Part shown: positions 3,385-21,326 of the stretch, piece after piece | Numbering within the stretch: position 1 is the first letter of the stretch | How the letters are laid out: each line of letters starts with the position of its first letter | NCBI RefSeq assembly: GCF_030643805.1 | Contig: NZ_CP094656.1 | Span: 1,364,001-1,428,000 of the forward strand | DNA: 64,000 bases | Reading direction: 5' to 3' | Source: Alkalihalobacillus sp. AL-G | GTDB lineage: Bacteria; Bacillota; Bacilli; Bacillales; Fictibacillaceae | Position numbers and translations under genes: made by a program | Notes under the pieces: generated by a model | What the model was told of the DNA's origin: nothing | The model's database searches: none | The model's input: only the letters and a program-made list of their open reading frames with translations

Positions 3385-3831
3385 AACACCGTGTTTTGGA
3401 GAAGAGAGCATTTGATATAATTCCTTTTGTAGTTATTATATGCCAATATATATGAATGAAAGGAAAAAAAGAAATAACTTAATATTTTTTATGACTGAAA
3501 GTAAATCGAGTCAAAAAACAATACCATATATATTATTCAAGAAACGGGCGCTTTTCTGTAATAAGGAAAGCGTCTTTCTTCATGAAAAGGGCCAGATTGT
3601 GGAATAAAGAAGGTAATTAATTGGTTCATCTTGAAATTGTAAGTTATGCCAAACAGTTTTCTTGAATAAGAGGGTTCTTAAAATCCGTGGAGGAAATTTA
3701 TTTAAATAAAGTTTTGCTTCTATTAAGTTAGTGAAGGAATGTCCCTTTCACTAAAAGAATAATTGATGTACAAATTTGATCCTAGAAAAATACTTATTAT
3801 AAAATAAAGTAACTAAAAATGGGGAGAGCGA
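3385..3831. other. Gene-free gap of 447 bp containing repeat R2
   Basis: No ORF with a ribosome binding site was found here. It is AT-rich, holds repeat copy R2 at 3535-3609, and 220 bp further on the next gene begins. The short CTTTCACTAAAAG stretch near 3750 was not interpretable. Confidence 0.5.
3535..3609 (+). repeat. Palindromic intergenic repeat, copy R2 (near complete)
   Basis: Best reference copy with R6 and R7. Order: left arm with ACGGGCGC, inner stem GGCGCTTTTC/GGAAAGCGTC followed by TTTCTT (terminator-like), then right arm GGGCCAGATTGTGGAATAA. The right arm read in reverse complement (TTATTCCACAATCTGGCCC) matches the left arm consensus CTTCAACAATCGGGCGC, so the whole unit is an imperfect palindrome. 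Confidence 0.75.
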
Positions 3832-4386
3832 ATGAGTAAATCACCTAATATAGAATCTGATAGTGAAACAAAACGATTTGAGGTCAGTTTACAGACTCGT
3901 AATTTTGAAATAGAGTTGTTTTGGAAGAGGTCATTGTTTTTTTGGGGTTTTATAGCCTCTGCATTTATAGGCTTTGCAAATCTATTTGACAAGAATTTCT
4001 ACTTATCAATTATTATTGCTAATTTCGGTTTTATTTGTTCTTTATGTTGGACACTTGTTAACCGTGGATCTAAATTTTGGCAAGAGAATTGGGAAAGTAA
4101 GGTTGCCGATAAAGAACTTAGCAAATATTCGAAGTTGTTTACAGAAATTGAGCCTGTACAAAACAAGTTCCCCTTGTTACAAGCAAGAAAATATTCAGTG
4201 AGTAAATTGGCCATTGGCCTAAGTGATTATGTAGTAATTCTTTGGGCCGGGATTATTATTTTTTCTGTGTGTTTTAGTAAGGAATTTATTTATTTACATA
4301 AAGAATTGATTGTTATGTTCTTTTCAATCTTTACATTGGTGTATGCAGCATACATGATTATTTTTGGAAGAACTTCAAAGGATTAA
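3832..4386 (+). CDS. Membrane protein resembling the RipA family octameric membrane proteins
   Basis: 184 residues with four hydrophobic segments (about 32-50, 56-76, 132-150 and 155-178). The short motifs EIELFWKRS, followed by FWGF, and GSKFWQENWE between the second and third segments match what I know of proteins annotated as RipA family octameric membrane proteins; the family name is moderately sure. Start ATG follows GGGGAG. A DUF4238 gene follows 127 bp downstream, and both lie between repeat copies R2 and R3, suggesting one mobile unit. In other genomes such membrane proteins turn up in accessory and defence loci; a role here is not shown. Confidence 0.55.
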   Translation: MSKSPNIESDSETKRFEVSLQTRNFEIELFWKRSLFFWGFIASAFIGFANLFDKNFYLSIIIANFGFICSLCWTLVNRGSKFWQENWESKVADKELSKYSKLFTEIEPVQNKFPLLQARKYSVSKLAIGLSDYVVILWAGIIIFSVCFSKEFIYLHKELIVMFFSIFTLVYAAYMIIFGRTSKD

Positions 4387-4513
4387 ATGCTCACTATTTT
4401 TCATAATCGGGGGAAGTTCATTTTTATTCACTATAATACGGGTTTATATAATATAGGTAATTATATTTCAAGTATCATTCATAAAAATAAATCACAAACG
4501 GAGATGCTTTGCT

Positions 4514-5482
4514 ATGGGTAAAACTAAAAAAAAACATCATTATGTACCCAAGTCTCTACTTGCAGGATTCACAAAAAAAGAAACTGTTGAAAGTCCACTA
4601 TGGGTATTTGACCAGGAAACAGGAAAACAGTGGGAATCGAAGCCTGTGAGGGTTGGTTTTAAGAACGACATTTACAAAATTGAAATAGCGGATGTTCTCC
4701 CAGATGCTTTGGAAGATTCATTTATGGAAATAGAAACAAAAACAGCGCCAATAATAAAAAAATTAAAAAATACATTAGAAATGCCAAAAGGAACAGATTT
4801 TATATGGCTAATTAATTACATAGCATTGCAGTATTCAAGGACTCCAGTTAGAAAAGAAACATTATCTGAACCAATGGCTAATATTGCAAAAATAATGATG
4901 CAAATGTCTATTGCAACACCAGAAAGGTATACAAAACTTATTGAGGATATGAAAAAGGACGGTAAAAACATTGGAGAGGAACTTTCCTATAAGGAAATGC
5001 ATGATTTTATAATGGATGAAGATAGATATAAAATTGTAATTGATAACAATACCAAAATGAACAATATACTTACCTCTATTGATGCAATAATACCGACTTT
5101 AATGAAAAGAAATTGGTCTGTTGTATATAGTCCAACAACGGTAGGGGATTTTATTTGTTCTGATAATCCGGTAAATTTACATTGGACAAATCCTCAGCTA
5201 AATAGAGGGTTTTTTAATTCGCCAGGACATGGCTTACCTGATACTGAAGTCAGCTTTCCTTTAAGCAGTAGAGTTATGTTGCTTGGTAGGTTTGATAATT
5301 TTCAACCATCTTCAGGCACTATACCAAACAAACTGACCTTGGCGGCATTAAATAGTTTTACAGGTAAACAAGCAGATCGTTTTATATATTCACGAAAGAA
5401 AGATTTCTATTGGCTAAGTAATGATAATAAGGTTGCAAATATTGAAGATTTTAAAAGCATGATAAGAGAAAAAAATTGTTAG
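4514..5482 (+). CDS. DUF4238 domain protein
   Basis: 322 residues. The N-terminal KKHHYVPKSLLAGF is the hallmark of DUF4238, with FICSDNPV (about residues 210-217) and SFPLSSRVML (about 247-256) typical of its C-terminal half. Biochemical function is not established; members are common in accessory and defence regions. Start ATG follows GGAG with about 10-nt spacing. Together with the upstream RipA-like gene it forms the content of the R2-R3 interval. Confidence 0.75.
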   Translation: MGKTKKKHHYVPKSLLAGFTKKETVESPLWVFDQETGKQWESKPVRVGFKNDIYKIEIADVLPDALEDSFMEIETKTAPIIKKLKNTLEMPKGTDFIWLINYIALQYSRTPVRKETLSEPMANIAKIMMQMSIATPERYTKLIEDMKKDGKNIGEELSYKEMHDFIMDEDRYKIVIDNNTKMNNILTSIDAIIPTLMKRNWSVVYSPTTVGDFICSDNPVNLHWTNPQLNRGFFNSPGHGLPDTEVSFPLSSRVMLLGRFDNFQPSSGTIPNKLTLAALNSFTGKQADRFIYSRKKDFYWLSNDNKVANIEDFKSMIREKNC

Positions 5483-5564
5483 TAACCATACCTCCTTGGA
5501 GCTTTGGTCATTAAGATAGAAGTTTTTTATAAAGGCTGTTTTCGTATTGATACATATCATTTTT

Positions 5565-5630
5565 TTAAACTAAAGGGGCGTTGAACTAAGAAGGATTACG
5601 CCTCTATTTGTTTAATACATAAGAATTGAG
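5565..5630 (+). repeat. Degenerate intergenic repeat, copy R3
   Basis: TTAAACTAAAGGGGCG, then a spacer, then GGATTACGCCTC and a T-rich stretch. It keeps the inner GGGGCG/CGCCTC stem but has poor arms. The TTAAACTAAAGGG start recurs in copy R16 at 21294, so it may be a sub-family. Confidence 0.45.
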
Positions 5631-5670
5631 CAGTTTTAAGGAGAAGTAATAATAGATGGGGGGAAGTTCT

Positions 5671-6752: not shown

Positions 6753-6783
6753 AGTTAACAAGTAAAGGCTAGATCATACAATG

Positions 6784-6850
6784 AACTTCAACAATCGGGG
6801 CTTATCTGCAGTAAGGATAAGCTTCTTTTTTGTGAAAATTATATTGAGTT
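6784..6850 (+). repeat. Palindromic intergenic repeat, copy R4
   Basis: Left arm ACTTCAACAATCGGGG (6785-6800), inner stem GGCTTATC/GGATAAGCTT followed by CTTTTTT, then a weak right arm (TATATTGAGTTAG). It lies 32 bp after the HEPN gene stop. Confidence 0.65.
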
Positions 6851-6957: not shown

Positions 6958-7968
6958 TTGACTTCAAAAATCATCTTTTCATCTAATAAACTAGGCGTAA
7001 TAACCGATGATCAATTACAAGAAATGCTTAACAAATTTAATTTAGGAAGGCTTATCTCTTCAAGAAATACAGAACAGGGTGTAATGAAACAAACAAGGTT
7101 TGTTTATTCAACTGAAGGAGAGTTCGTCTTCAAAGGAAATCCATTGTACCCTGGACAATTGATAGAAGAAAAGTTTTTTGTAGAAGAATTATATAAACGG
7201 ACAAATGTTAACGTCCCTATTCCTTATTTTTTAGATGATACAGATGATATTTTTGGCTGGAGTTATTCAATAATGCCTCGCCTACCAGGAGAACATCTAA
7301 ATTCAAAGCGACTATCAAGCAATTTAAACCGAAAAGACAAGTTTAATATAGCTGGCTTGATTGCTGAGACCCTACTTGAGTTTCATAGTTGGAAAGCAAG
7401 TCAATATGGAGATCTAGATACTAAGGATTTAACTATACGTCCTTTTGAAGAATCATATGTTTCTTGGCTTTATAATAGGATTAGGTATTGGCTTAATGAT
7501 GCCAAAAAGTACTCCCGAATAACTACTGAAGACGTTGAATGGGTTGAAGCTTTATTGGAAAACGCAAGATCTACATTTCAAGCCCTGTCTTCACCAACAT
7601 ATGTAATGGGAGATTTCAAACCAGGAAATTTTTTAGTTTCCGGTGAATCTAACAAATTTCATATAAGTGGAGTATTCGATTTTACAAACACTTATTTTGG
7701 TGATCCTATTTCCGATTTGATCAAGATGATAACGATATATATTGATAATGATGAAATAGAGGTAGCAAAGCATTTATTATCACATTATTTGGATGGATCA
7801 GTGGAAAAAGAAGACTACAAACAAAGATTACAAATACATATGCTCCACCAAAGAATCTTGGATTGGGGATGTGCAAAAGCGATAGGGATGGTTACGTGGA
7901 ATGATGATCTTGCATTCTCTGAATGGGCAGCGAGATACACTGACACTGTGGCAAATCTGATCGATTAA
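6958..7968 (+). CDS. Aminoglycoside phosphotransferase (APH) family kinase
   Basis: 336 residues, TTG start behind AAGGAGAGGG. Protein-kinase-like fold of the APH/choline kinase family: the catalytic loop is VMGDFKPGNFL (Asp219, Asn224), with Met in place of the usual His before GD, and the metal-binding Asp241 lies in FDFTNTYFGDP. The small-molecule substrate cannot be deduced; resistance is only one possibility for this family. Single gene between repeats R4 and R5, typical of the one-gene units in this region. Just downstream lies the IS21 insertion. Confidence 0.8.
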   Translation: MTSKIIFSSNKLGVITDDQLQEMLNKFNLGRLISSRNTEQGVMKQTRFVYSTEGEFVFKGNPLYPGQLIEEKFFVEELYKRTNVNVPIPYFLDDTDDIFGWSYSIMPRLPGEHLNSKRLSSNLNRKDKFNIAGLIAETLLEFHSWKASQYGDLDTKDLTIRPFEESYVSWLYNRIRYWLNDAKKYSRITTEDVEWVEALLENARSTFQALSSPTYVMGDFKPGNFLVSGESNKFHISGVFDFTNTYFGDPISDLIKMITIYIDNDEIEVAKHLLSHYLDGSVEKEDYKQRLQIHMLHQRILDWGCAKAIGMVTWNDDLAFSEWAARYTDTVANLID

Positions 7969-8128: not shown

Positions 8129-8863
8129 TTAGTTGGTGCCTTTTTCATTCATTCGATAACTCGGTCCATCCATGGAGAATACTCGAGAATAGTGTAGGAG
8201 TCGATCTAAGATTGCAGTCGCAATTACCCCATCTCCTAATACTTCTCCCCACTCACTGAATGTCTTATTAGACGTTAATATGATCGAGCTGTTTTCATAC
8301 CTTCGACTGATCACCTGAAACAGATAATGTCCACCATTATTAGATAGATTCAAGTACCCCATTTCATCGATGATTAGAAGAGAAGGCTTGGCAAGCCCTC
8401 TCATTTTCTTATCCAACTTCCCTTGAGAATCTGCTGTTTGAAGCGAAGTGATGAGTTCTTGTGCCGTCATAAAGTATGTCTTCAAACCTTTACGGATGGC
8501 TTCCAAGGCAATTGAGACTGCTAAATGGGTTTTACCGACTCCAGGCGGACCAAGGAAGACTAAATTCTGATTCTGCTCTATGAAACTAAGACTCATATAT
8601 TCTTCAATGTCCCTGCGGGACACACCTTTCACACGATCAAAATCAAACGTATCTAACGTTTTCCTAAAGGGTAATCTTGATAGCTTTAAGAGCGTCTGTC
8701 TACTTCGTTCTATACGGGCTTGATTTTCAACTTCCAGTATTCGCTCTAGGAATGCATGGTATGGTATATTATTTTTAGAAGCTTCTTCAGTAAGGGTTCT
8801 CCATTCAGATTGAATGGTGGTTAATTTGAGCGATTCGCAATATGTATCAATAGCTTGATTCAT
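8129..8863 (-). CDS. istB: IS21 transposition helper ATPase IstB
   Basis: 244 residues, AAA+ ATPase of the IstB/DnaC type. Walker A GPPGVGKT and Walker B LLIIDEMGY are intact, and the C-terminal GVIATAILDRLLHYSRV is typical of IstB. It acts with the IstA transposase by remodelling target DNA. It begins 3 bp after the istA stop, as is usual. Appears full length and intact. Confidence 0.93.
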   Translation of the reverse strand: MNQAIDTYCESLKLTTIQSEWRTLTEEASKNNIPYHAFLERILEVENQARIERSRQTLLKLSRLPFRKTLDTFDFDRVKGVSRRDIEEYMSLSFIEQNQNLVFLGPPGVGKTHLAVSIALEAIRKGLKTYFMTAQELITSLQTADSQGKLDKKMRGLAKPSLLIIDEMGYLNLSNNGGHYLFQVISRRYENSSIILTSNKTFSEWGEVLGDGVIATAILDRLLHYSRVFSMDGPSYRMNEKGTN

Positions 8864-8866
8864 TTT

Positions 8867-10066
8867 CTATCGCTCTCCTTCCTGAAGGAATTGGTCGTAA
8901 ACGCTTAGTGGGCGAACAGCGACCTCTATATCCTGTGCAGCGTGGAGGGTGCCAGCCTTTGAACGCTGCTTTTTTCTTATCTGTTCGGAAAGTGGTAGAA
9001 CCTTATCGTCTCTTGTATAGGTCAGAATCGCTTCCCCATGATAATAAACGGTAATCGTGCCATCTAGCGTTTCCTTAATCATTACTTCTTGCCCTGCAAA
9101 TTTTGAGCTCATCAGGATCTTTCTAGAATGGTAATTCATGACCCCATCTCTCCCAATCTTTCGATACGTAATGTAACTGGAATCATATCTTGATGGGTTA
9201 AGAGGCTGCAGGGACTCTTTCAACCAAAGCTCTACCGGTTTCCGTTCTGTAGTAGAGTGAATGCGTTGATTCGCCGTTTCTTCCACCCATCTCAGGAGTC
9301 TGAGATTCAACTCTTGTAAAGATCGAACCGATGAAGTCTCTAGCCAACCATTCATATAACCGATAAATCGTTCAACTTTCCCCTTAGTTTGAGGGCGATA
9401 GGGACGATGTACGGAAGGCTTGAAAGCATAGTGATCAACAAAATCTAAGAACTTTTCATTCCATTCAACTTCTGGACCACTTCTCCGGTTGATAATCGTC
9501 TTCATATTATCAAACATTACCTTTTCGGTTACGCCTCCGAAGTATTCAAAAGCATTCGTCAGGCAGTACAATAGGTGTTCTCGATCCTGCCGTTCCGCAA
9601 AACAAGCATAACTCATTCGTGAGTAGGAAAGAGTAGCGACAAAGATCATGAGTGGTATGACTTCACCATCAATCTGGTAATGACCAGCTTCTTTCCAATC
9701 GACTTGCATCTGTTCTCCAGGTTCTGTTTCATACCGTCTGGTATGACTTTCTTTAAAGGCCTTACGATATGGTTGTACAAACTCTTTTAATATCGTACTG
9801 CCACCTGAATAACCTCTTTGTTTAATCTCAATAATCAGCTTCTCACAATTGAAAACATAGTCTTCTTGAATTCGCTTAAGCAGGTAATCTTTATATGGAT
9901 CTAACTTCGATCCTTTTTTTGAACGGTGCTGTACATGGTTTTTCTCTCGTTCACTTAACGCTCTTACCGTATGCCTATGCATTCCCAACATCTCCGCAAT
10001 ATCTGATTGGGACATGCCTCGTTCCAATAGTTCTTTCACTTTTCGTCGCTCTCCCTCCAACTTCAT
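8867..10066 (-). CDS. istA: IS21 transposase IstA
   Basis: 399 residues. N-terminal helix-turn-helix (GMSQSDIAEMLGMHRHTVRAL), then a DDE integrase core with Asp in MQVDWKEAG, Asp in VMFDNMKTI and Glu in TKGKVERFIGYM. All three catalytic acids are present and the length is normal for compact IstA proteins, so the element may be active. Start ATG behind GGAGG on the minus strand. Confidence 0.93.
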   Translation of the reverse strand: MKLEGERRKVKELLERGMSQSDIAEMLGMHRHTVRALSEREKNHVQHRSKKGSKLDPYKDYLLKRIQEDYVFNCEKLIIEIKQRGYSGGSTILKEFVQPYRKAFKESHTRRYETEPGEQMQVDWKEAGHYQIDGEVIPLMIFVATLSYSRMSYACFAERQDREHLLYCLTNAFEYFGGVTEKVMFDNMKTIINRRSGPEVEWNEKFLDFVDHYAFKPSVHRPYRPQTKGKVERFIGYMNGWLETSSVRSLQELNLRLLRWVEETANQRIHSTTERKPVELWLKESLQPLNPSRYDSSYITYRKIGRDGVMNYHSRKILMSSKFAGQEVMIKETLDGTITVYYHGEAILTYTRDDKVLPLSEQIRKKQRSKAGTLHAAQDIEVAVRPLSVYDQFLQEGER

Positions 10067-10663: not shown

Positions 10664-10744
10664 AACGATCTTCAGCAATCGGGCGCAAATCTGGAACAAG
10701 GATGAGCGCTCGTTTTCCATTTTAGGGCCATATTCTGGAATAAG
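10664..10744 (+). repeat. Palindromic intergenic repeat, copy R6 (complete)
   Basis: Left arm AACGATCTTCAGCAATCGGGCGC (10664-10686); inner part with GATGAGCGCTCGTTTT; right arm AGGGCCATATTCTGGAATAAG (10724-10744). The right arm is close to the reverse complement of the left arm. With R2 and R7 it defines the consensus. Confidence 0.75.
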
Positions 10745-10820
10745 AATTAGATGTAATTAAAGGAATAGAACGATTTAACTTGAAATCTATGTAAGTATAT
10801 TTTTAAAGGAAGGTGATTAA

Positions 10821-11570
10821 ATGAGTACTAATTTGGAAGTTATTGATAAAAAAGTTGATGTTGGGGGATTTAAATTAAATTATAGCTATCATGTAATAAA
10901 TAAAGAAAGTCCAACTGTTATTTTGGAGTCAGGACATGGAATGTCCTCTGAAGTTTGGAATGAAGTTAAAAATGGTATCTCTTCGTTTGCTAATATTTTT
11001 TTGTATGATCGTGCAGGTCTAGGAAAGAGTGAATTAGGCAATAAACCACATCATAGTAACCAAGTTGTTGAAAATTTAAATACCTTACTACAAAAGGAAA
11101 ATATTAAACCACCTTATATTCTAGTTGGGCACTCTCTTGGTGGTATACATATACGTGTTTTTGCTCATACCTATCCCGAAAAAGTTATAGGATTAGTATT
11201 GGTAGATTCAGCACATGAAGAGCAAGATCAAAAGATGGTACCATATTTCTCTAAGGAAATACAGGATATATATTACTCTCAATTTGTTGCAGAAGGCACA
11301 TATGAAGATTTTAAAGACAGTTTGAGACAAGTTCGTGATACAAGAAATTCATTTGTGGACATACCAATACATATTTTATCAGCTGGTGTCAAAGATGACT
11401 ATCATAATGATAAGACGTACGGTTTATGGTTAAGATTCCAAAAAGATTTTTTATCTTTATCTAATCATTCAAAGCAGGTAATAGCTAAAAAAAGTAATCA
11501 CTTTATCCATAACAAAGAGCCGGAACTCGTTATTGAAAGTATTAAAAAAATTATTAATAAGAATAGATGA
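10821..11570 (+). CDS. Alpha/beta hydrolase
   Basis: 249 residues with the alpha/beta hydrolase fold: nucleophile elbow GHSLGG, a following LVLVDSAHEE strand that may carry an acid, and a late His in KSNHFIHN. The oxyanion region begins LESGHGMSSEVW. ATG start behind AAGGAAGGTGAT. Cytosolic: no signal peptide. Substrate unknown. A second, unrelated hydrolase follows 66 bp downstream; the two share the interval between repeats R6 and R7. Confidence 0.82.
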   Translation: MSTNLEVIDKKVDVGGFKLNYSYHVINKESPTVILESGHGMSSEVWNEVKNGISSFANIFLYDRAGLGKSELGNKPHHSNQVVENLNTLLQKENIKPPYILVGHSLGGIHIRVFAHTYPEKVIGLVLVDSAHEEQDQKMVPYFSKEIQDIYYSQFVAEGTYEDFKDSLRQVRDTRNSFVDIPIHILSAGVKDDYHNDKTYGLWLRFQKDFLSLSNHSKQVIAKKSNHFIHNKEPELVIESIKKIINKNR

Positions 11571-11636
11571 CAAGAAGTACCTTATTCCAAAGGGAAATAG
11601 CTGAAGATGCTAAGGTGTGTTTAGGAGGGGAGAAGT

Positions 11637-12547: not shown

Positions 12548-12762
12548 GAAAGGAATTACGTAAGTAACCGAAGTTCTTTATTTCGTAGACACAGCATTCG
12601 ATTCGGTGTAATAATTATTTTAATGAGGGTTGGTGAATGCAGAGAACATTATCGGAAATCAATATAAATCAGCTATGGAACAAGTTCGATTAGATTTATG
12701 TAGGGTCTCTTTACTTATGGGGACTTTTTAGCAGGAAAAATACTATAACTTAGGTGATAAAG

Positions 12763-13731: not shown

Positions 13732-13819
13732 GATGCAGTCAGTGAGAATTAATGAAGTGAGATGATAGTACTGTTCAAAGATGGCATTGACAGCCGATAA
13801 CACTGCTTGATATTTAAAA

Positions 13820-13890
13820 CTATACCGCAATCGGGCGCTAATCTGTAATAAGGTAAGCGCCTTTATTAATGAAAATTAAGGATTGAGTTA
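13820..13890 (+). repeat. Palindromic intergenic repeat, copy R8
   Basis: CCGCAATCGGGCGCTAATC, inner stem GGCGCTAATC/GGTAAGCGCC followed by TTTATT, then a degenerate right arm ending GGATTGAGTTAG. Confidence 0.65.
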
Positions 13891-13898: not shown

Positions 13899-13921
13899 GT
13901 TTTGAAATAATTGGTATTAAG
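13899..13921 (+). repeat. 23-bp sequence identical to 20014-20036
   Basis: The 23 bases starting GTTTTGAAATAATTGG and ending TATTAAG occur identically here (before R9) and at 20014-20036 (before R14). In both places they are preceded by GATTGAGTTA and followed by an arms-only repeat copy. Confidence 0.7.
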
Positions 13922-13944
13922 CAATCGGGCAGGATTGTGGAAGA
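13917..13944 (+). repeat. Arms-only repeat, copy R9
   Basis: GCAATCGGGC is joined directly to AGGATTGTGGAAGA: left and right arms without the inner hairpin, as if the middle of the palindrome had been deleted. Confidence 0.55.
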
Positions 13945-13991
13945 CTCAGTTTCGAGATATTATGGGATGTTGTTGGATATATAATGGTTTG

Positions 13992-14011
13992 TTCTATTAA
14001 AATAGAATGTA
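13992..14011. promoter_or_regulatory. Candidate ArsR-type operator O1
   Basis: TTCTATT-AA-AATAGAA dyad (13992-14007) followed by TGTA. Its 20 bases closely match O2 at 14098-14117, 106 bp downstream, and both lie upstream of the ArsR-type gene. Confidence 0.5.
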
Positions 14012-14031
14012 CCGGAAAACTTTATGTATTT

Positions 14032-14072
14032 GAAAGAAGCCATTCTTTAAAAAAGAAGGGCTCTTATTTTAA
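14032..14072 (+). terminator. Terminator-like hairpin
   Basis: AAGAAGCCATTCTTT pairs with AAAGAAGGGCTCTT with minor mismatches and is followed by ATTTT. It sits between operator candidates O1 and O2, so it may insulate the ArsR gene from upstream transcription. Confidence 0.45.
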
Positions 14073-14091
14073 TATACGAAAAATATTGAAC

Positions 14092-14119
14092 AATATATTC
14101 TAATAATATAGAATGTATT
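14092..14119. promoter_or_regulatory. Candidate ArsR-type operator O2
   Basis: ATTCTA-N6-TAGAAT (14097-14114) extends outward with one mismatch on each side to AATAT/GTATT. It lies 14 bp upstream of the ArsR-type start codon, over the expected promoter/leader. Autoregulation is inferred from position and symmetry. Confidence 0.55.
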
Positions 14120-14132
14120 CAGGAGGGATAAT

Positions 14133-15182
14133 ATGGAATTATATTCTGCAAGCACCAAAATTTCTAGAGATAAATATAGTGTTGAAGTCAAATACTCTCT
14201 TTTATGGGAATCAGCTTTAGGTATAGCAGCTATAACAAATGAATCTTTAATTGACACGTTAGAAATCTCGAAAAAAAATAGGAAATTAATCGAACAAGCA
14301 TTATCACCAAAGATGATGGAGCATCTTGATTATGTAAAAAAACATAACACTTGGAAGACACTTCTCCAAATTCTTCACCAAAAAGACTTTGAACATCTGA
14401 CTTCTTTTATAGACTATGTTAATAGCTTATCCTCAAAACATCTAAAGTCCATTGCAATTCCTTATTTAGGTGAGGAATACCATGACTTGATAAATGAACT
14501 ATTGGAGGGTTCTGAAAAAGGTCTTTGTGAGTTGCAAAAAATCACAAAAAATCATCCCTTTCTTCCAAGTTACCTTAAATATATAAAGGACGTTTCCTCT
14601 GAGGAATTAAAGAGTCACTTAGTTGAAATTATGGCTGGTTGGTTTGAAACTGTCATTGAACCTGAAAAAGATATACTGAGCGCAATACTTTTAAGGGATA
14701 AGGCTTCCAAAGAAAATATGCTCAACAATTTAGACCCGGAAGAATTTATTGAATGGGCTACTGATGGTGTTAAATATTCTCCCGAACCAAGTGTGCATAA
14801 GGTTATTCTCATACCTCATTATTTTTACAGACCATGGAACGTTGAAGCAGATCTGGATGGTGTTAAAATATTTTATTATGCGGTGGCAAATGAAAGTATC
14901 TCAAATGAGAAATTTGTGCCGAATAAACAATTGGTACAAAGATATAAAGCATTAGGAGATGAAACACGGTTAAAAATACTGAAGATGATAAGAGAGGATC
15001 ATTTATCTCTGCAAGAGTTAACGTCTGAACTGAATTTAGGCAAAACAACCGTTCATCATCATTTGAAGATCTTAAAGTCAGCAAGATTAGTATCTCAGGT
15101 TTCAAACAACAAATATGACATTAATCAAAGCGCCATTGATTTCTTACCTATCGATTTAAGTCTGTATTTGGATAGTGAATAA
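14133..15182 (+). CDS. ArsR-type regulator with a long N-terminal domain
   Basis: 349 residues. The C-terminal third is an ArsR winged helix (ALGDETRLKILKMI, LTSELNLGKTTVHHHLKIL). The roughly 250-residue N-terminal part matches the layout of DUF5937-type proteins fused to ArsR domains. No cysteine metal-site motif is visible, so it is probably not a metalloregulator. ATG start behind AGGAGGG. It overlaps functionally with the MFS gene 15 bp downstream, and is therefore the likely local repressor of that exporter. A similar-architecture regulator controls an ABC exporter at 40505-41527. Confidence 0.85.
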   Translation: MELYSASTKISRDKYSVEVKYSLLWESALGIAAITNESLIDTLEISKKNRKLIEQALSPKMMEHLDYVKKHNTWKTLLQILHQKDFEHLTSFIDYVNSLSSKHLKSIAIPYLGEEYHDLINELLEGSEKGLCELQKITKNHPFLPSYLKYIKDVSSEELKSHLVEIMAGWFETVIEPEKDILSAILLRDKASKENMLNNLDPEEFIEWATDGVKYSPEPSVHKVILIPHYFYRPWNVEADLDGVKIFYYAVANESISNEKFVPNKQLVQRYKALGDETRLKILKMIREDHLSLQELTSELNLGKTTVHHHLKILKSARLVSQVSNNKYDINQSAIDFLPIDLSLYLDSE

Positions 15183-15197
15183 AAAGGGGAGAAGCTT

Positions 15198-16430
15198 ATG
15201 AATTATTCAGCAGTACAAGTGGAACCGAAAGAGAAAGTTCCTGAGTTCAAAAAGAATTTTCAAGTATTTAGATTTATTGGTGGTAACTTAGTTTCCTTTT
15301 TCGACGATCAAATATATTTAATTGCACTCCCATTGATTGTATTGGCAATCACCGGATCACCGCTGAGTATGGGAATAGTAGCAGCTCTCGAGAGATTACC
15401 TATTCTCATACAGCCCTTTACTGGAGTATTGGCTGATAATTTTAATCGGAAAAAAATTCTCTTGCTTTGTGATTTAGGTAGATTTCTAACGGTTGGTCTC
15501 TTAGGTTTTTTATACATAATTAATCACTTAACCATTTGGGAAATATATGGTGGTGCGTTAATCGTCGGTTTGTTAACGCAAATCTATAATACGTCTCAAT
15601 TTGCTTCCGTTCCTAAGTTAGTTCAAAAGAAAGACTTACAGCTAGTAAATTCAATAAATACAGGCATATTTCAAACGGCTGTATTTATTGCACCAGGATT
15701 AGGAGGAATCATCATTAGTTTCTTTAATCCAGGTGCGGGTTTAATTATCAATAGCTTATCGTTTTTTTTTGGATTTTTAGTTGTATTGAGTCTGAAAATT
15801 GATAGTAATGTACAGAAAGAGAAAATAAACAGTGCAAAGGTGTTTAGAGATATAAAAGAAGGATTTAAGTTTGTCATTGCTATGAAACCTATTCTATATA
15901 CGAACTTAGCCATGCTTTTTTCAATTTTTGGAACCACTTTATTTCTAACAATGTTGGTTATACATCTCAAATCTACAGTAAGTTTAAATGCTGTACAGAT
16001 AGGTTATCTTCTATCAATTGGAGGAGTTGCAGCTATAGGTGGCGCTTTAATATCCAACTGGTTAAGAAGGCATTTTACTTATGGGAATATTCTTTTCTAT
16101 GCAGGGGTAATAGGAGGAATCTCAATCATAGCTTTTGCTATGTATGAGTCATTTTTGTGGTTGGCATTAATGAATGCTTTAGGAACAGTTTGTGCATCCA
16201 TAAAGAGTCCTTGTATTGTAACCATACGCCAAAAACTAAGCCCTGATCATCTGTTGGGGCGCGTTCAAGCTACCTGTCGTTTCATGACATGGGTACTTAT
16301 GCCGGTTTCTTCTTTAGTTGCTGGAATTATAGCTGAACACTTTGGGACTACATTAACTTTACTAATAGGAGGTATAATTGCTACTATTGCTTCCTTTATT
16401 TATTTACATCCATCTCTAAAAACTGCTTGA
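15198..16430 (+). CDS. MFS efflux transporter
   Basis: 410 residues with about 12 hydrophobic segments. The signature between segments 2 and 3, GVLADNFNRKKILLLCDLGR, is typical of MefA-like/DHA3 exporters, as is the start FRFIGGNLVSFFDDQIY. Located in the cytoplasmic membrane; the substrate is unknown (drug efflux is the common role of the group). Co-transcribed with the upstream ArsR-type regulator (15-bp gap, ribosome site AAGGGGAG). Confidence 0.88.
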   Translation: MNYSAVQVEPKEKVPEFKKNFQVFRFIGGNLVSFFDDQIYLIALPLIVLAITGSPLSMGIVAALERLPILIQPFTGVLADNFNRKKILLLCDLGRFLTVGLLGFLYIINHLTIWEIYGGALIVGLLTQIYNTSQFASVPKLVQKKDLQLVNSINTGIFQTAVFIAPGLGGIIISFFNPGAGLIINSLSFFFGFLVVLSLKIDSNVQKEKINSAKVFRDIKEGFKFVIAMKPILYTNLAMLFSIFGTTLFLTMLVIHLKSTVSLNAVQIGYLLSIGGVAAIGGALISNWLRRHFTYGNILFYAGVIGGISIIAFAMYESFLWLALMNALGTVCASIKSPCIVTIRQKLSPDHLLGRVQATCRFMTWVLMPVSSLVAGIIAEHFGTTLTLLIGGIIATIASFIYLHPSLKTA

Positions 16431-16521
16431 ATTAAGTGCGTTATGAATATGAGTGCTGTGATTCCAATGTTGACCTCCCCGGTTACATATAGATCATTTT
16501 GGCTCTTATTTTTATATAAAT

Positions 16522-16556
16522 AAGTGCTTCTCAAAATGAGAAGCACTTTAATTTTA
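16522..16556. terminator. Bidirectional terminator between MFS and Shedu genes
   Basis: A 12-bp perfect stem, AAGTGCTTCTCA / TGAGAAGCACTT, with a 3-nt loop and T-rich sequence on the + side. It lies between convergent genes. Confidence 0.75.
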
Positions 16557-16570
16557 TGTAAGGCAAGAGC

Positions 16571-17704
16571 TTAATGCTCCCCTTTTTTTTCTGCTAATAA
16601 ATCAAGCAATAGTTGGATTCTCGTAAACAACTCATCAAAGGTGATAATAACAACATTTTTCATTTCTTTTCTATACAATTCAAATGACTGTAGCTTATCA
16701 TCCCCTAGATTACTAATGTTCCCTGCAATTACTACACAATGAGGACTAAACACATTGAAATCATTCCCACTATTTTGACCGAGAGAAGAATACTCTCTAA
16801 TGATTTGCTCTTTATAACTAAGCGCTTGTACAATACTACCTGTTAGATGAGGGTGAATTGAATAGACTCCTGCTCTGTACTCACTAGATAACAACTCTGT
16901 TTCAGGAGTCTTTATTTCTATCAGCGAAATCTCTTTTGAAAGCTCATTTTGATAAATAAAGTCTATAACCTTTCCGCCTCTATTATCTAAACCTTTACCT
17001 CCAATGTATGCTTTTTCTTGGAACAATAATGTGGGACTTGCAAAGACTTGACTTAGTACCCAAGCATTTTCTCTTAATGTTACCTGCCAGAACTCCTCGT
17101 CAGCATTTTCATTATTGTTTTCCCATATATTCAATAACTTTCTTAATTTAGCAATGCCTATTATATTATTTAATTGGTCTAACTCTTCCTCCTGTGCTTC
17201 AAGCAGCTTAGTTACAATTTCTTCAGAATTATCTGTGTCACTCATCCACTTAATTGTTTTTTCCAATAAGTTGCTTTTGTGATCATCTAACTTAAGTAAT
17301 GTTTCAAATAGTGAACTATTATCTTTAAGCATTTCAGTGATCTTCTCTAATTGTATGTCAGTCTTTGAAAAAGTTCTTTCGCCAGGTTGTATTCCGTATT
17401 CTTTATGTATCTTGTAGTAAACATCTAACTCAGTCATTAGCCTGAGCATTTCTTCTGATTTAATCTCTAACTTAATCCATTCATCAGCTTTGAGTTGGCT
17501 GTTATCTAATTCTTTATAATCTTCCCAGTCTCCACTTGGTCTCTTTCTTTGATAAACAAACCAACCTTTGACAGAAGCTTCTTGATTATGAACATTATTT
17601 GTAATCATTGGTCTGAATAATAACCTAGTAGTAGATTTTTCGCGTAAAATTATATCTTCTCCTTGAGCAGAATCCATAGATGTAGAAGTGGTACTTATTT
17701 TCAT
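16571..17704 (-). CDS. sduA: Shedu defence nuclease (SduA-like, DUF4263)
   Basis: 377 residues. The C-terminal part is the Shedu domain, a PD-(D/E)XK-type nuclease: FWQVTLRENAW (205-215), GKGLDNRGGKVIDF with Asp248, IEIKTPETELL with Glu263 and Lys265, then AGVYSIHPHLTGSIVQA (278-294). The N-terminal 200 residues are variable and helical, as is usual for this family, where they are thought to set specificity. Shedu is a known single-gene anti-phage system of Bacillus and other bacteria. It is transcribed against most of the array. Confidence 0.85.
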   Translation of the reverse strand: MKISTTSTSMDSAQGEDIILREKSTTRLLFRPMITNNVHNQEASVKGWFVYQRKRPSGDWEDYKELDNSQLKADEWIKLEIKSEEMLRLMTELDVYYKIHKEYGIQPGERTFSKTDIQLEKITEMLKDNSSLFETLLKLDDHKSNLLEKTIKWMSDTDNSEEIVTKLLEAQEEELDQLNNIIGIAKLRKLLNIWENNNENADEEFWQVTLRENAWVLSQVFASPTLLFQEKAYIGGKGLDNRGGKVIDFIYQNELSKEISLIEIKTPETELLSSEYRAGVYSIHPHLTGSIVQALSYKEQIIREYSSLGQNSGNDFNVFSPHCVVIAGNISNLGDDKLQSFELYRKEMKNVVIITFDELFTRIQLLLDLLAEKKGEH

Positions 17705-17840
17705 AAAACAACCCCCTAATTAATATTGTAGTTAAATAATAACATCAATAATCCAAATTTTGTATTAAATGTAAGGTTAGAGAAAGTTCGGCTACGCTAG
17801 TTGAAGGTTAACTCGAGGATATCTCGAAATCTTACGAAAA

Positions 17841-17872
17841 GTATAAGAGAACCATAAAAGTTATGGTCCTCC
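17841..17872 (-). terminator. Terminator-like hairpin downstream of the secreted protein gene
   Basis: On the minus strand GAGGACCATAA pairs with TTATGGTTCTC around a CTT loop and is followed by TTATACTTTT. It begins just past the stop of the gene at 17882. Confidence 0.6.
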
Positions 17873-17881
17873 TTAAATAAT

Positions 17882-18709
17882 TTATTTTACTTCTATAGAA
17901 TCATCGCTAATAGGGATAACAGAATGTGTTAAGTTTTGCCCATAAATGATTTTCCATTGTCTGTTTTCTTTAAAAACTGCATAAGTTTCCCTAGTTCCAA
18001 AGTGTTCAAAATTAGTTTCTATAAAAGCAATAGCTAGTGTGTCAGATATTATTTCAATTCCTACTGGCTTAATTTTAACTGCTGGCTTTTTACTAATTGC
18101 TTCAAGATGTTTGTCTAGATCAAATTTATTACTGATATGAAGATCTTTCCTATATTTCTTCATTTCATTTATATTCCCTGACTTTATCGCTTGAGTATAA
18201 TTAACGATTGTTTGTTTTACCTCTTCGTAAATTTTGTGGTTTTCCTTTAAATCGGAAAAATGTGCTGTTCCTGTTCCAGGTATACCTTTAACGATTTTCC
18301 ACTGTCCATTCATTTTTAGAACAGGTGCTGTGTTAACAAAGAGTTTATCCTTGTATTTCGCTTCAATTGATACTAATGCTAACTCATCATTTACAACAGT
18401 TACATTTGTAATGTCAGCTTGCTTAAGGGGATGTTTTTTGCAAATAATTGAGTAAAATTCCCTTTCATTACTAATATCCCGGAAATATTTTGAGTTTTCT
18501 ATCATACCATCAACATTACATTGTTTTTGGGCCCTAAGATAATTTAGGACAGCATTCATTGCATTCTCTTTTGTTGCAGCAGAACTATTGCTATTTGTTT
18601 CAGCTTGAGCAATTGAAGTGATGTTTAAGTTGATAAATAATAAGATAAGCACCAAAAATAGCCCAATTTTAACAAACCACTTGGATATTTTATGATCGAT
18701 TGTTGTCAT
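17882..18709 (-). CDS. Exported protein with two NTF2-like repeats
   Basis: 275 residues. The N-terminus is a long signal sequence (hydrophobic residues about 13-33, ending AQA, likely cleaved). The mature part has two similar segments, each with a helical ALxxYLRA or TQAIKSG start and an NGQWKIV or NRQWKIIYG strand, as in DUF4878/lumazine-binding-like NTF2 folds. Such domains are often lipid or peptide binding; the role is unknown. ATG start behind GAGGTAG. Minus strand, like the Shedu gene that it precedes by about 180 bp. Confidence 0.6.
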   Translation of the reverse strand: MTTIDHKISKWFVKIGLFLVLILLFINLNITSIAQAETNSNSSAATKENAMNAVLNYLRAQKQCNVDGMIENSKYFRDISNEREFYSIICKKHPLKQADITNVTVVNDELALVSIEAKYKDKLFVNTAPVLKMNGQWKIVKGIPGTGTAHFSDLKENHKIYEEVKQTIVNYTQAIKSGNINEMKKYRKDLHISNKFDLDKHLEAISKKPAVKIKPVGIEIISDTLAIAFIETNFEHFGTRETYAVFKENRQWKIIYGQNLTHSVIPISDDSIEVK

Positions 18710-18817
18710 CTAGCTACCTCATTTCGTTTGTAATTTTCACTGTGTATTGTTTACCAACTAAAGAAGATTATGTGTAGGAATTAAGTAGAGATGAGATTTT
18801 TAAACTAGTTGGTTTAT

Positions 18818-18843
18818 CACAGCATCGGGCACAATTTAGAAGT
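18818..18843 (+). repeat. Arms-only repeat remnant, copy R10
   Basis: CAGCATCGGGC joined to ACAATTTAGAAG, the same kind of arms-only junction as R9. One of three repeat remnants in the 18710-19094 gap. Confidence 0.45.
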
Positions 18844-18863
18844 ATTGCAATGTGTTCGTTATG

Positions 18864-18898
18864 TAAGAAATGGGGGCTTTTCTGCAATAAAGCCATTC
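18864..18898 (+). repeat. Repeat remnant, copy R11
   Basis: GGGGGCTTTTCTGCAATAAAGCC: the inner stem GGCTTTT/AAAGCC and the conserved TCTGCAATAA loop without arms. Confidence 0.45.
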
Positions 18899-18911
18899 AG
18901 AACAGTTTAAA

Positions 18912-19028
18912 AACGATCTTCAACAATCGGGCGCGTTTCTGAAATAAGGATAGCATCTTTATTATGTGCCCCAAAGGTTATGAGACTACCCTGAAAATCG
19001 TTTTTCTTAGATTGTTGAAGAACTTAAG
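18912..19028 (+). repeat. Repeat copy R12 next to the recombinase gene (possible primary recombination site)
   Basis: Left arm AACGATCTTCAACAATCGGGCGCG (18912-18935) and inner part (TTTCTGAAATAAGGATAGCATCTTT) fit the consensus. A right arm TAGATTGTTGAAGAACTTAAG sits at 19008-19028, further away than in other copies. CTTCAACAAT (18918-18927) and ATTGTTGAAG (19011-19020) are exact inverted repeats. The copy ends 66 bp before the recombinase start. Confidence 0.6.
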
Positions 19029-19094
19029 TATGAAATTTACTCTTTATGAGCATAATAGAATTAAGATTAAGTGGTTCATAACCTGGGAGAGTGA

Positions 19095-19943
19095 ATGGCC
19101 ATGCTATTATCTGAAGCTTGGGAGAAGTATCAACTTGATAAGAAAATCGAAGGGTATTCAGCTTTAACATTGAAAACCTATTGCTTTCAATACAATCTGT
19201 TATTAAGATTTTTTGGCAATATTGATATGAGTGAATTTACTACAGAAAAACTCAAAAGCTACTTAATTGAGGCAGGAGAACATTTAAAACCGTCTAGTCT
19301 GGGGTATCGTGTTCGTTGTATTCGATCACTTTTTAAATGGACATACGATGAAGGGTTCATTTCCAAGAATCCAGCTGCAAAATTGAAAGAACCTAAGCTG
19401 GGCAAAAGGATCCCAAAATTCCTTTCAGAGCTCGAAATAGAACATCTCAGAGAAGCTTGCCATACTTCCATGGAAAATGCATTATTTGAATTTTTTTATT
19501 CTACCGGATGCCGTATTGGAGAAGTTGTAAAACTCAATCGGGATGATATTAACTTCACTACGAATTCCGTTATTGTACATGGAAAAGGAGATAAGGAAAG
19601 AGAAGTGTATTTTAATACTCGATGCTCCTTGTGGTTGAAAAGATATTTAGATGAACGGAATGATGAGGAGCCATGCCTGTTTATCACCGAAAGAAGGCCC
19701 AAAAGACGTATGAGTATTGACCTTATGAGATATATCATTAAGCGTATATCAAGTCGTGCTGGAATAAAGAAGAGTATTCACCCGCATCAATTACGACATA
19801 GTTATGCGACTCACATGATCAACAACGGGGCACCTCTTGAAGTCATTCAGAGCTTACTTGGTCACGAGAAAAGTGAAACCACGAAGATATACGCCCACCT
19901 AAGTGGAAAACTGAGACATGATTTCTATAGCAAATATTTCTAG
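19095..19943 (+). CDS. Tyrosine recombinase, Xer-like
   Basis: 282 residues with a SAM-like core-binding domain (about 1-100) and a catalytic domain. The full catalytic set is present: Arg140 (GCRIGEV), Lys164 (HGKGDK), His231 and Arg234 (HPHQLRHSYATH), His257 (LLGHEKS) and nucleophile Tyr266 (KIYAHL). Length and spacing are those of XerC/XerD; I see no IntI-type extra helix between the Lys and the HxxR box. It is unlikely to be the housekeeping Xer because it sits in accessory DNA, flanked closely by repeat copies R12 and R13. It may move the repeat-bounded units. GGGAG precedes the start; ATG 19101 is an alternative. Confidence 0.92.
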   Translation: MAMLLSEAWEKYQLDKKIEGYSALTLKTYCFQYNLLLRFFGNIDMSEFTTEKLKSYLIEAGEHLKPSSLGYRVRCIRSLFKWTYDEGFISKNPAAKLKEPKLGKRIPKFLSELEIEHLREACHTSMENALFEFFYSTGCRIGEVVKLNRDDINFTTNSVIVHGKGDKEREVYFNTRCSLWLKRYLDERNDEEPCLFITERRPKRRMSIDLMRYIIKRISSRAGIKKSIHPHQLRHSYATHMINNGAPLEVIQSLLGHEKSETTKIYAHLSGKLRHDFYSKYF

Positions 19944-19985
19944 GTAAGCACGTTCTTCATGGAGCGAGCTTTTTTCATATTTAAT
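19944..19985 (+). repeat. Repeat copy R13 / terminator after the recombinase gene
   Basis: Starts within 1 bp of the recombinase stop. AGCACGTTC pairs with GAGCGAGCT (one mismatch) and is followed by TTTTTC, so it can act as a terminator. It matches the inner part of the consensus and continues into a weak right arm with GATTGAGTTA. Confidence 0.5.
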
Positions 19986-20013
19986 GGAATTAAAAGATTG
20001 AGTTATATACCGA

Positions 20014-20036
20014 GTTTTGAAATAATTGGTATTAAG
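20014..20036 (+). repeat. 23-bp sequence identical to 13899-13921
   Basis: Second copy of the shared junction sequence, again between a repeat with GATTGAGTTA and an arms-only copy (R14). Confidence 0.7.
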
Positions 20037-20064
20037 TTAAAGGGCAGTTATCAGGAATAAAAAT
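20031..20064 (+). repeat. Arms-only repeat, copy R14
   Basis: TTAAGTTAAAGGGC joined to AGTTATCAGGAATAA, a right-arm-like sequence, with no inner hairpin. Confidence 0.45.
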
Positions 20065-20106
20065 ACGCCGATTTCTTGAAGTCTTGTATTATGGAGGGTG
20101 ACGAAT

Positions 20107-20574
20107 ATGAAAAAATATTTGCCTTTACTAACTGTTTTACTAGCTATACTAATAGGATGTCAAAATGAAACAGTTAAAGATGAAAATTGGGAACCGTCAA
20201 GTACATTCAAAACTACCGAGAATAGAGAAATGATAGGAATGGAAAACCGAATTGGTGTCATTTGTACTACTGAATTAAAAAGCAATAGCCCAGCAAAGTG
20301 CATGTGGCATTTTTGGGATGATACGTTACAGACATCAAAAGAATATACTGTTAGGGTCGAGGGAATTATGGAAGAAAATAATAAAAAATTCCCCGTTTTA
20401 ACCCCATTAGATGGAGAGCCTACGTATACCCAAAAATTAGGTTTGATGGGTTCTAATAACGGAGCACCATTCCATCTCCCATCTCGTTTATTGTTTCCCC
20501 ACAGTGGGGTATGGAAAGTATCTATTTACTTCAATGATGATTATTTTGATTCAATTATATTAGATGTAAAGTAA
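20107..20574 (+). CDS. Lipoprotein, probably DUF4871-like
   Basis: 155 residues. Start set at ATG 20107 behind GGAGGGTG; the upstream GTG 20098 lies in that site. N-terminal lipoprotein signal with lipobox LIGC (Cys18), so the protein should be anchored on the outer face of the membrane. The rest (WHFW, EYTVRVEGI, HSGVWKVSIYF) forms a single beta-rich domain that resembles DUF4871; that name is only moderately sure. Single gene between R14 and R15. Confidence 0.6.
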   Translation: MKKYLPLLTVLLAILIGCQNETVKDENWEPSSTFKTTENREMIGMENRIGVICTTELKSNSPAKCMWHFWDDTLQTSKEYTVRVEGIMEENNKKFPVLTPLDGEPTYTQKLGLMGSNNGAPFHLPSRLLFPHSGVWKVSIYFNDDYFDSIILDVK

Positions 20575-20600
20575 TCACTTATGGGGAAGGTTAATGCGAC

Positions 20601-20676
20601 GTCGTTCTTCCACAAATACTGCATAAGGTTATCGTCTTTCTCTGACTGAAAATTGCGCAGGATTGTTAAGGATAGT
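20601..20676 (+). repeat. Repeat copy R15 (degenerate, full length)
   Basis: CGTTCTTCCACAAAT, then CTGCATAAGGTTATCGTCTTTCTC, then GCGCAGGATTGTTAAGGATAG: left arm, inner part and right arm in the standard order. Confidence 0.5.
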
Positions 20677-20728
20677 TGTAAATGACTTGGGGAAAATACA
20701 CCTAAATCTATATTTTCAGGTGATGTAT

Positions 20729-21292
20729 ATGAGCTATAGAACTTCCCTTTTAATACTTGTATTCAGTATCTTAATTTCTGATATAAGTTTAAGTGCAGCC
20801 TTTGCAAATGAAAATGTCAAGCCCAGACCTTATGAAGAGATTTATCCAGAAATCGGCTATAAATCGGTAGAAGAAGCGAAAAGGGAATTTGAACAACATT
20901 TTAAGAAAACCTTAAAATTACCGCTAAGAGTTCCTCCAATCGAATTCACACACTATGTCGGAAGATTTAGTGATTTAGAAGGAGAACTAAACGACTCATT
21001 TGAAGTGGAATTTATTAGTGATCAATCACCTAAAAATCACTATAAAATCAATGTGAGACCTATAAAGCATAAAATACCGATAAGAGATGATAATGTTTTA
21101 AGATTATATAAACTAAAAAACGGAAATGAAGCAGTATATACGAACATTTCAGGTTTTAATGTATTGGTTTTTGAAAGAGGTAGTTGGCAATATATGCTTA
21201 GTATAAATAAAAAAGTATCTGATAAGGTTTCCCCCGAAATCTTAGTTCAGATAGCGAATTCAATTGATTATTCTACTGAGATAAAAAATTAG
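20729..21292 (+). CDS. Secreted protein of unknown function
   Basis: 187 residues from ATG 20729, chosen because AGGTGAT at 20718-20724 is well spaced. Signal peptide (MSYRTSLLILVFSILI..) with likely cleavage after AFA near residue 25. The C-terminus (YTNISGFNVLVFERGSWQYML...SPEILVQIANSI) looks like a DUF4367-type domain found in exported and anti-sigma proteins; this is a weak assignment. Single gene between R15 and R16. Confidence 0.6.
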   Translation: MSYRTSLLILVFSILISDISLSAAFANENVKPRPYEEIYPEIGYKSVEEAKREFEQHFKKTLKLPLRVPPIEFTHYVGRFSDLEGELNDSFEVEFISDQSPKNHYKINVRPIKHKIPIRDDNVLRLYKLKNGNEAVYTNISGFNVLVFERGSWQYMLSINKKVSDKVSPEILVQIANSIDYSTEIKN

Positions 21293-21293
21293 T

Positions 21294-21326
21294 TGTTAAA
21301 CTAAAGGGAGCTTATCCGAAATAATC
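21294..21326 (+). repeat. Left half of repeat copy R16, cut by IS3
   Basis: TTAAACTAAAGGGAGCTTATCCG matches the start of R3. The IS3 terminal repeat begins at 21327. Beyond the IS (from about 22806) CAGCACTCCTTTTTTT could be the missing second half. Confidence 0.45.

Follow-up and report, generated by a model that had tools for sequence, protein, structure and literature searches.

Core sites and units in the window

The DNA analyzed here, called the window, is a stretch of 64,000 nt from Alkalihalobacillus sp. AL-G (NZ_CP094656.1, positions 1,364,001 to 1,428,000, forward strand), whose genome is a single contig of 4.16 Mb. Toward its start lies a series of units, most of which hold one or two accessory genes, divided from one another by head-to-tail copies of a 32-bp core site, and one of these units carries the gene of a Xer-like tyrosine recombinase. 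We interpret this series and its relatives as gene-cassette arrays moved by a dedicated tyrosine recombinase, a reading to which we give a probability of about 0.8. An earlier note on this DNA had described genes of unrelated function separated by a degenerate repeat that keeps one orientation, has inverted arms, and contains an inner hairpin, and this description holds. It had also taken the full copies of 75 to 85 bp for single attC-like palindromes; copies of this size are real, but each consists of two core sites around a mini-unit.

The core site was defined by an iterated position weight matrix over the 98 loci that we compared, namely the first 24 kb of the window, 20 array regions, and 77 of 79 recombinase-centered loci (L137 and L164 overlap or repeat other loci and were left out). 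It consists of a 13-bp arm of about TTMTTCMRCWAWM, an asymmetric 6-bp center, GGGCGC, and a second arm that is a near-symmetric inverted copy of the first. Scores given below are those of this matrix, which was trained on the same 98 loci, and site counts refer to scores of at least 16 unless stated otherwise. Positions 1 to 28000 of the window hold 14 plus-strand sites and no minus-strand site, and positions 28001 to 64000 hold none; as a chance control, 20 sampled 10-kb stretches of the same genome gave a single site, on the minus strand. The spacing of neighboring sites across the 98 loci is bimodal, at about 40 to 60 bp and 0.4 to 5 kb, and full repeat copies are therefore a left site, a mini-unit, and a right site. 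Paired sites in the window are 41 to 57 bp apart, the exception being the pair at 13833/13927, with 94 bp.

The first site, at 1004..1035 (first central G at 1017, score 29.2), precedes the stretch from 3.5 to 21.3 kb to which the earlier note had assigned the series; the series is present there, but it extends to a site at 24.35 kb. The site at 3533..3564 (G at 3546, score 39.8) is the genome's best match to a covariance model of the repeat, which was seeded with eight copies, this one included. It opens an open reading frame (ORF)-less hairpin mini-unit of 43 bp (3546..3588), closed by a site at 3576..3607 (G at 3589, score 35.5). The next unit (3589..5574) encodes, by Pfam, an 8xMP membrane protein (3832-4386) and a DUF4238 protein (4514-5482), and its right border is a weak site at 5562..5593 (G at 5575, score 13.3). 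A decayed site with a 1-bp deletion in its center lies at 6783..6814 (score 6.7; repeat match R1, 6781-6853), followed by an APH-fold phosphotransferase gene (6958..7968; PF01636), whose unit is interrupted downstream by an insertion sequence (IS) of IS21 type on the minus strand (8129..10066). This element comprises what we take to be istB (8129-8863) and an istA recognized by its Pfam rve domain (8867-10066).

The series resumes with sites at 10668..10699 (G at 10681, score 37.7) and 10712..10743 (G at 10725, score 30.0), which enclose a mini-unit of 44 bp (10681..10724) defined, like those that follow, by site spacing. Two alpha/beta hydrolase genes identified by Pfam (10821-11570 and 11637-12470) form the unit 10725..12485, and a further pair of sites, at 12473..12504 (G at 12486, score 32.2) and 12514..12545 (G at 12527, score 22.0), bounds a mini-unit of 41 bp (12486..12526). 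The unit 12527..13832 holds one gene (12754-13731) with no Pfam match at E ≤ 0.001 and ends at the site 13820..13851 (G at 13833, score 27.5), next to another at 13914..13945 (G at 13927, score 26.9). From there a long unit of four genes (13927..18871) encodes, again by Pfam, an ArsR-type regulator (14133-15182) and an MFS transporter (15198-16430) on the plus strand and Shedu SduA, a defense protein (16571-17704), and a lumazine-binding-like protein (17882-18709) on the minus strand; a very weak site at 18827 (score 7.8) may divide it.

The recombinase follows a mini-unit of 57 bp (18872..18928) that lies between a site at 18859..18890 (G at 18872, score 28.5) and the strongest site of the window, at 18916..18947 (G at 18929, score 41.9), 166 bp upstream of the recombinase start codon. 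Its unit spans 18929..20041, as delimited by the sites and by the limits of similarity to other genera, and contains an isolated plus-strand half-site, GATTGTTGAAGAA, at 19010..19022, recognized in an alignment of upstream regions, and the gene itself (19095..19943, plus strand; 282 aa, PF00589). The closing site lies at 20029..20060 (G at 20042, score 22.1), and the unit beyond it (20042..21305) holds a DUF4871 gene identified by Pfam (20098-20574) and a second gene (20663-21292), with no internal site near 20.6 kb. After the site at 21293..21324 (G at 21306, score 20.8), the series is interrupted by a pair of genes that we take, from their translations, to be an IS3-type element (21.36-22.7 kb; 21360-22703), past which lies the site at 24338..24369 (G at 24351, score 34.6). 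Of the repeat positions proposed earlier, those near 4.4, 7.99, and 20.6 kb are unsupported as sites (scores 5.4, 5.6, and −1.9) that at 5.57 kb is the weak one described above, and the copy at 6796 is the decayed one with the deletion. A scan of the window with Rfam gave no match.

Beyond the window, the covariance model gave at least 53 matches at E ≤ 1 in the same genome (150 of 1107 candidates scored), including two opposite-strand shadows; they are grouped in about 13 clusters, the window series being one. At least 31 are on the plus strand, all at 0.758-2.310 Mb, and at least 20 on the minus strand, all at 2.930-3.529 Mb. GC skew is positive in 11 sampled stretches up to 2.0 Mb and negative in nine from 2.2 Mb (near zero at 2.2), and the genome presumably begins with a DnaA-like start of translation at base 1. 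Taken together, repeat strands and skew make 44 of 51 copies co-directional with replication and place the remaining seven, at 2.18-2.31 Mb, in the change-over zone. A single orientation is also the rule in other genomes: the 77 recombinase-oriented loci (1.32 Mb, also part of the training set) hold 568 plus and 67 minus sites, which is the unbiased strand figure since the 20 array regions had been oriented by their own repeats, and 61 of the 77 have at least three plus sites. Assigning each site to its better-scoring strand gives 1005 plus and 129 minus sites over all 98 loci, or 622 and 38 at a score of at least 22, against a chance expectation of about 17 matches per strand.

Evidence that units move

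Movement of the units is well shown by sequence comparisons among the loci. Two arrays, L175 (Rossellomorea sp. AcN35-11) and L180 (Bacillus sp. RO3), are 98% identical, and L175 has 3,587 bp extra, running from a GGGGGC at 5603 to a GGGGGC at 9190. This block consists of seven units with six further sites inside, and the sequence on both sides of it continues at about 98%. L204 and L135 are 99.8% identical over 3.6 kb and diverge at a site; leftward of the GGG their arms are not the same, and farther out the two agree only in a 17-bp stretch that recurs before other sites.

Units also recur whole between different neighbors. A comparison requiring at least 90% of both copies and at least 75% identity gave 51 pairs, of which 46 were kept after removal of pairs between neighboring loci of one genome and between the near-identical L175 and L180. 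Both flanks differ in 35 of these (29 recombinase units, whose pairs are not mutually independent, and six others), one flank could not be judged in the other 11, and no pair has a similar flank. Two of the six non-recombinase pairs sit in different arrays of the window genome. A 4.9-kb block is likewise found in two arrays of that genome, duplicated at 94% and starting at a site (L078 5674-10553 and L082 5489-10363).

Borders of shared DNA were tested more generally from 567 matches among the 98 loci, each no shorter than 300 bp and no less than 78% identical. Leaving out recombinase genes, recognized group II introns, and neighboring-locus pairs, 86 matches of at least 80% identity remained, which formed 54 clusters, each represented by its longest match, with a site counted within 20 bp. 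Both copies start at a site in 10 of 51 clusters and end at one in 11 of 51, where random expectation has means of 0.026 and 0.034 and a maximum of 1 in 500 trials; without clustering, the figures are 12 of 81 starts and 16 of 76 ends. In base-level views, shared DNA often begins or stops at GGG. Several shared segments starting at GGGC were group II introns by Rfam and had been removed from this test, and L173 was left out by its similarity to L148 and not by an intron scan of its own; unrecognized introns may remain in the test because 15 of the 98 loci were scanned for them. The earlier proposal of a cassette system analogous to integrons is supported: shared units end precisely inside repeats, the same unit occurs between different neighbors, near-identical arrays differ by a whole-unit block, and the recombinase sits in such arrays.

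A 1.8-kb segment with a regulator, presumably of the WYL type, recurs in five loci but was not accepted as an example of a border at a site, since on the right it ends at another sequence. It is about 89-94% identical in L091 (2116-3947), L125 (7821-9650), L096, L154, and L117, from different genera, has a sharp right end at CCTGACGCTACCC in four of the five, and is possibly another mobile unit with a different border.

The recombinase

The catalytic domain of the recombinase matches PF00589 (Phage_integrase) at E 8e-40, and the protein just passes the NF040815 XerA profile (220.9 bits, cut-off 220). It is below the cut-offs of the XerC and XerD profiles and of both integron integrase (IntI) profiles (TIGR02249, 103.2 bits against 265; PRK15417, 63.9 against 435). 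R140, K164, H231, R234, H257, and Y266, which we take to be the R-K-H-R-H-Y catalytic residues of tyrosine recombinases, are kept in at least 90% of 32 recombinase sequences without stops. By sequence, the nearest solved structures are an archaeal Xer (4a8e), Escherichia coli XerD (1a0p), and XerA (5hxy), with IntI4 (2a3v) lower; ranked by predicted fold, XerA and the archaeal Xer come first, IntI4 (2a3v) seventh, and XerD tenth. The structure model has a mean predicted local distance difference test score (pLDDT) of 82.6 and a predicted template-modeling score (pTM) of 0.57, with low values in the final 25 residues. The gene is under purifying selection: the ratio of nonsynonymous to synonymous divergence (dN/dS) from the window copy is 0.03-0.07 in three of eight pairs, those with measurable dS, and the other five have saturated dS and dN of at most 0.13.

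The earlier note had placed the recombinase within the series, and it does lie within such arrays, but it is itself one of the units, usually among sites in its own orientation, and not a platform gene. Most of the longest DNA matches to other genera begin at about 18909-19010 and stop at about 19939-20063, that is, near the borders of the unit. Of 39 full-length alignments, some of them of copies that contain stops, 25 have a site no more than 400 bp upstream (median 165 bp) and 24 have one as close downstream (median 72 bp); 17 have both. The half-site upstream of the gene is conserved among many copies and may be a putative regulatory binding site; autoregulation would be a guess.

Scanning of genome contigs gave 79 recombinase loci in many genera, which we place in Bacillaceae, Planococcaceae, and relatives; about half are more than 80% identical over nearly the whole length, and many copies elsewhere are fragments or carry stops. 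Matches were also found in 19 plasmid records, nine with relatives of 59-66% identity on large Bacillales plasmids and 10 below 40%, and in 22 phage records, all below 60% identity and 15 among the matches listed below 38%.

Sites are widespread in the window's order, with at least one at E ≤ 0.05 in 263 of 299 genomes; about 22 candidates were scored per genome, so the counts saturate near 22. In a phylum-wide control, 28 of 199 genomes had any site at this threshold. These include the window genome and two others of its order; outside the order the figure is 25 of 196, against about 10 expected from the E-value. The recombinase was matched at E ≤ 1e-50 in 71 of the 299 genomes, of which 62 were counted and nine, with about 37-46% identity, left out. 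All 62 have sites, with a median of 16, against a median of 5 in the 237 others (p 7e-11), so the co-occurrence that the earlier note had asked about is significant, but it is far from exclusive. One genome, G057, has a recombinase fragment (C13:52387-52608) about 2 kb from a repeat match (C13:50232).

Cargo, mini-units, and half-sites

Of 411 gene-sized units, 241 have one ORF of at least 80 aa, 93 have two, and 28 have none; in 334 of 383, the strand of the sites also encodes the largest ORF. The commonest Pfam families among 100 sampled unit proteins are GNAT acetyltransferases, glyoxalase/bleomycin-resistance folds, and HAD hydrolases, followed by MFS transporters. The cargo is accessory, as is that of integron cassettes, and the 8xMP, DUF4238, APH-fold, alpha/beta hydrolase, MFS, and Shedu SduA genes of the window are of this kind.

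The mini-units look like mobile transcription terminators. The mean folding energy of 138 of them is −12.1 kcal/mol, against −6.7 kcal/mol for mononucleotide shuffles, and 60% have a T-run; the class found at window position 3546 has eight copies in eight loci, with seven different left and eight different right half-sites.

Excision of units as circles would require the half-sites at either end of a unit to work together. In 511 gene units without the recombinase, the half-sites belonging to the unit's own ends match in 3.23 of 6 positions, above the permuted value of 3.09 (z 3.0, p 0.002), and the outer halves show no such excess (z −0.1). The left site as found in these 511 units gives z 1.8. 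In mini-units shorter than 70 bp over all loci, the arms of the left site as found give z 3.9, above gene units, and the unit's own halves z 1.2.

Interpretation and alternatives

We propose that the recombinase seen in the window is the enzyme of these arrays and acts on double-stranded sites by way of a circular intermediate. Each unit would be bounded by two core sites of the same orientation; strand exchange in the center would excise it as a circle with one hybrid site, composed of the 3' left arm and the 5' right arm, and the circle could enter any other site. Since the sites within an array point the same way, exchange would delete or insert units and never invert them. Arrays without a recombinase may be relics or be served in trans.

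Several observations weigh against this reading. About 80% of shared-DNA borders are not at sites in both copies, probably owing to IS elements, decay, and degenerate sites that were missed, and L175 and L180 have three other length differences, none of them at a site. No site was detected on at least one side in 22 of the 39 full-length recombinase alignments. The surplus of matching half-site positions is slight (3.23 against 3.09 of 6), and one is also seen in sites as found (z 1.4 and 2.6 at the two ends of 569 gene units), so the half-site contrast is modest. The earlier note had held that a repeat common in genomes lacking the recombinase would speak against a link, and this is in part what we see: 201 of the 237 recombinase-less genomes have at least one site, and 36 have none. 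Genome G031 has 42 repeat matches, and its recombinase matches, at E 4e-42 or weaker, we took as general Xer proteins. Eight loci of diverged recombinases (L210-L217, 62.8-65.8% identity) hold 11 plus and 16 minus sites in total, with plus sites in L216 (seven) and L214 (three), mainly minus sites in L210 (6), L213 (5), and L215 (4), and 0-1 sites in L211, L212, and L217; these enzymes perhaps have a second site specificity. Finally, L198 and L199, with recombinases of 83% identity, have two and no strong sites.

The richness of arrays in some genomes without the specific recombinase would also be expected if the units were site-specific cassettes moved by the host's XerC/XerD or by another recombinase, with the recombinase unit as a passenger, and dif modules have been described, in one account at least, as shuffling between Xer-type sites (PMC13141974). 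We consider this explanation unlikely, though it fares best among the alternatives. Recombinase-bearing genomes have about three times more sites, the strongest site of the window stands at the recombinase unit, flanking sites are often conserved at other copies, and the recombinase is under strong purifying selection.

A true, much diverged integron, with attC-like sites recombined as folded single strands, is somewhat less likely still. The left arm, hairpin, and right arm of a double copy can fold, 86 of 252 two-sided changes fall in the outer arms, the cargo is similar, and group II introns apparently lie in the sites, as class C introns do in attC. The attC-like idea, in which the arms of one repeat match each other or those of a neighbor, becomes interpretable only once the two-site structure is recognized, and borders occur at both sites around a mini-unit, which means that a unit does not correspond to the entire folded structure. 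The two-sided changes come from a model-fitted alignment and lie mainly in the mini-unit hairpin (166 of 252), and in a separate sample of 80 sites the arms show no covariation beyond composition, with 191 of 500 shuffles as high. The IntI profile scores, far below cut-off, and the position of the recombinase inside the array, with sites on both sides, also argue against an integron.

Resemblance of the mini-units to intrinsic terminators, in folding energy and T-runs, would suit a dispersed palindromic repeat or terminator family unrelated to recombination, with units apparent because repeats follow genes, but the unit borders at sites, the exchange of units between genera, and the seven-unit difference cut at GGG make this very improbable.

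Equally improbable is that group II introns, and not the recombinase, assemble and move the units. Seven of 17 scanned loci have Rfam group II introns, of two families, at sites, and several of these loci had been picked because shared DNA began at a site. The seven are L165 (2580-3280), L189 (from 18722), L202, L214 (both scanned, though outside the border test), L148 (from 1713), L158 (from 4999), and L079 (from 8635 and from 14931). The point at which shared sequence sets in puts the intron starts about 2 bp past the site center, and class C introns are reported in a review to insert at intrinsic terminators and integron attC sites (PMC4424553). Against a role as mover, there is no intron match in L175, the locus with the seven-unit block, nor in the six loci scanned among the 10 that carry seven non-recombinase whole-unit pairs, and units end with a left half-site, which would not be expected of intron insertion. 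Apart from its intron, L165 carries three tandem T-box leaders (16676-17590).

Comparison with known systems

Arrays moved by a dedicated recombinase would work much as integrons do, and on sequence grounds they appear to fall under the definition of neither integrons nor dif modules; we class them as tyrosine-recombinase cassette arrays, a member of neither. We also incline, with less assurance, to regard them as the Bacillales' own gene-capture system, evolved from a Xer-type recombinase independently of integrons and dif modules and marked by genome-wide same-orientation 13-6-13 sites, a recombinase that travels as a cassette, and mobile gene-less terminator cassettes. We found no description of such a system in the open-license literature; most subscription papers and all preprints were outside the search, and a prior description is possible.

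If this reading is right, the arrays would take a place that is left almost vacant by integrons in Firmicutes, and they would spread accessory genes across genera. The IntegronFinder 2.0 report gives Firmicutes a single complete integron and a few clusters of attC sites lacking integron integrases (CALIN), describes integrons there as extremely rare, and calls the reason why some clades are without integrons unclear (PMC9024848). With sites other than attC and an enzyme labeled just as a tyrosine-type or Xer-like recombinase, an order-wide counterpart would then have escaped notice. Such a counterpart would provide a way for Bacillus, Lysinibacillus, Virgibacillus, and relatives to exchange accessory genes, among them a defense gene and antibiotic-modification folds. 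It would also offer a simple example of cassette recombination that uses ordinary core sites, for comparison with the folded-strand chemistry of integrons.

Like integrons, these arrays are tandem accessory-gene cassettes, mostly of one or two genes, with sites in one orientation, group II introns in the sites, and a tyrosine recombinase as the probable mover. Whole-cassette gain or loss at sites is seen in one near-identical array pair and in six non-recombinase and 29 recombinase unit pairs. Unlike an integrase beside attI with its array to one side, the window recombinase is flanked by sites inside the array and is itself a unit; it is Xer-like and far below the IntI cut-offs, and the system has 13-6-13 core sites and ORF-less mini-units.

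In the dif modules of Acinetobacter plasmids, as in these arrays, genes are enclosed by core sites of Xer type that have a spacer in the middle. The modules have 28-bp pdif sites (11-6-11) in alternating orientation and the host's XerC/XerD as enzymes, whereas window-type sites have 32 bp, 13-bp arms, and one orientation per array (568 plus against 67 minus). The core site probably does not resemble dif. Window-type arrays also differ in lying on Bacillales chromosomes and in having a dedicated recombinase that travels as a unit. The Xer recombinases of dimer resolution (XerA, XerC/D) are among the closest solved relatives of this enzyme by sequence and fold; the window-type enzyme differs from them in being accessory, patchy, and present in multiple genera, often as broken copies inside cassette arrays.

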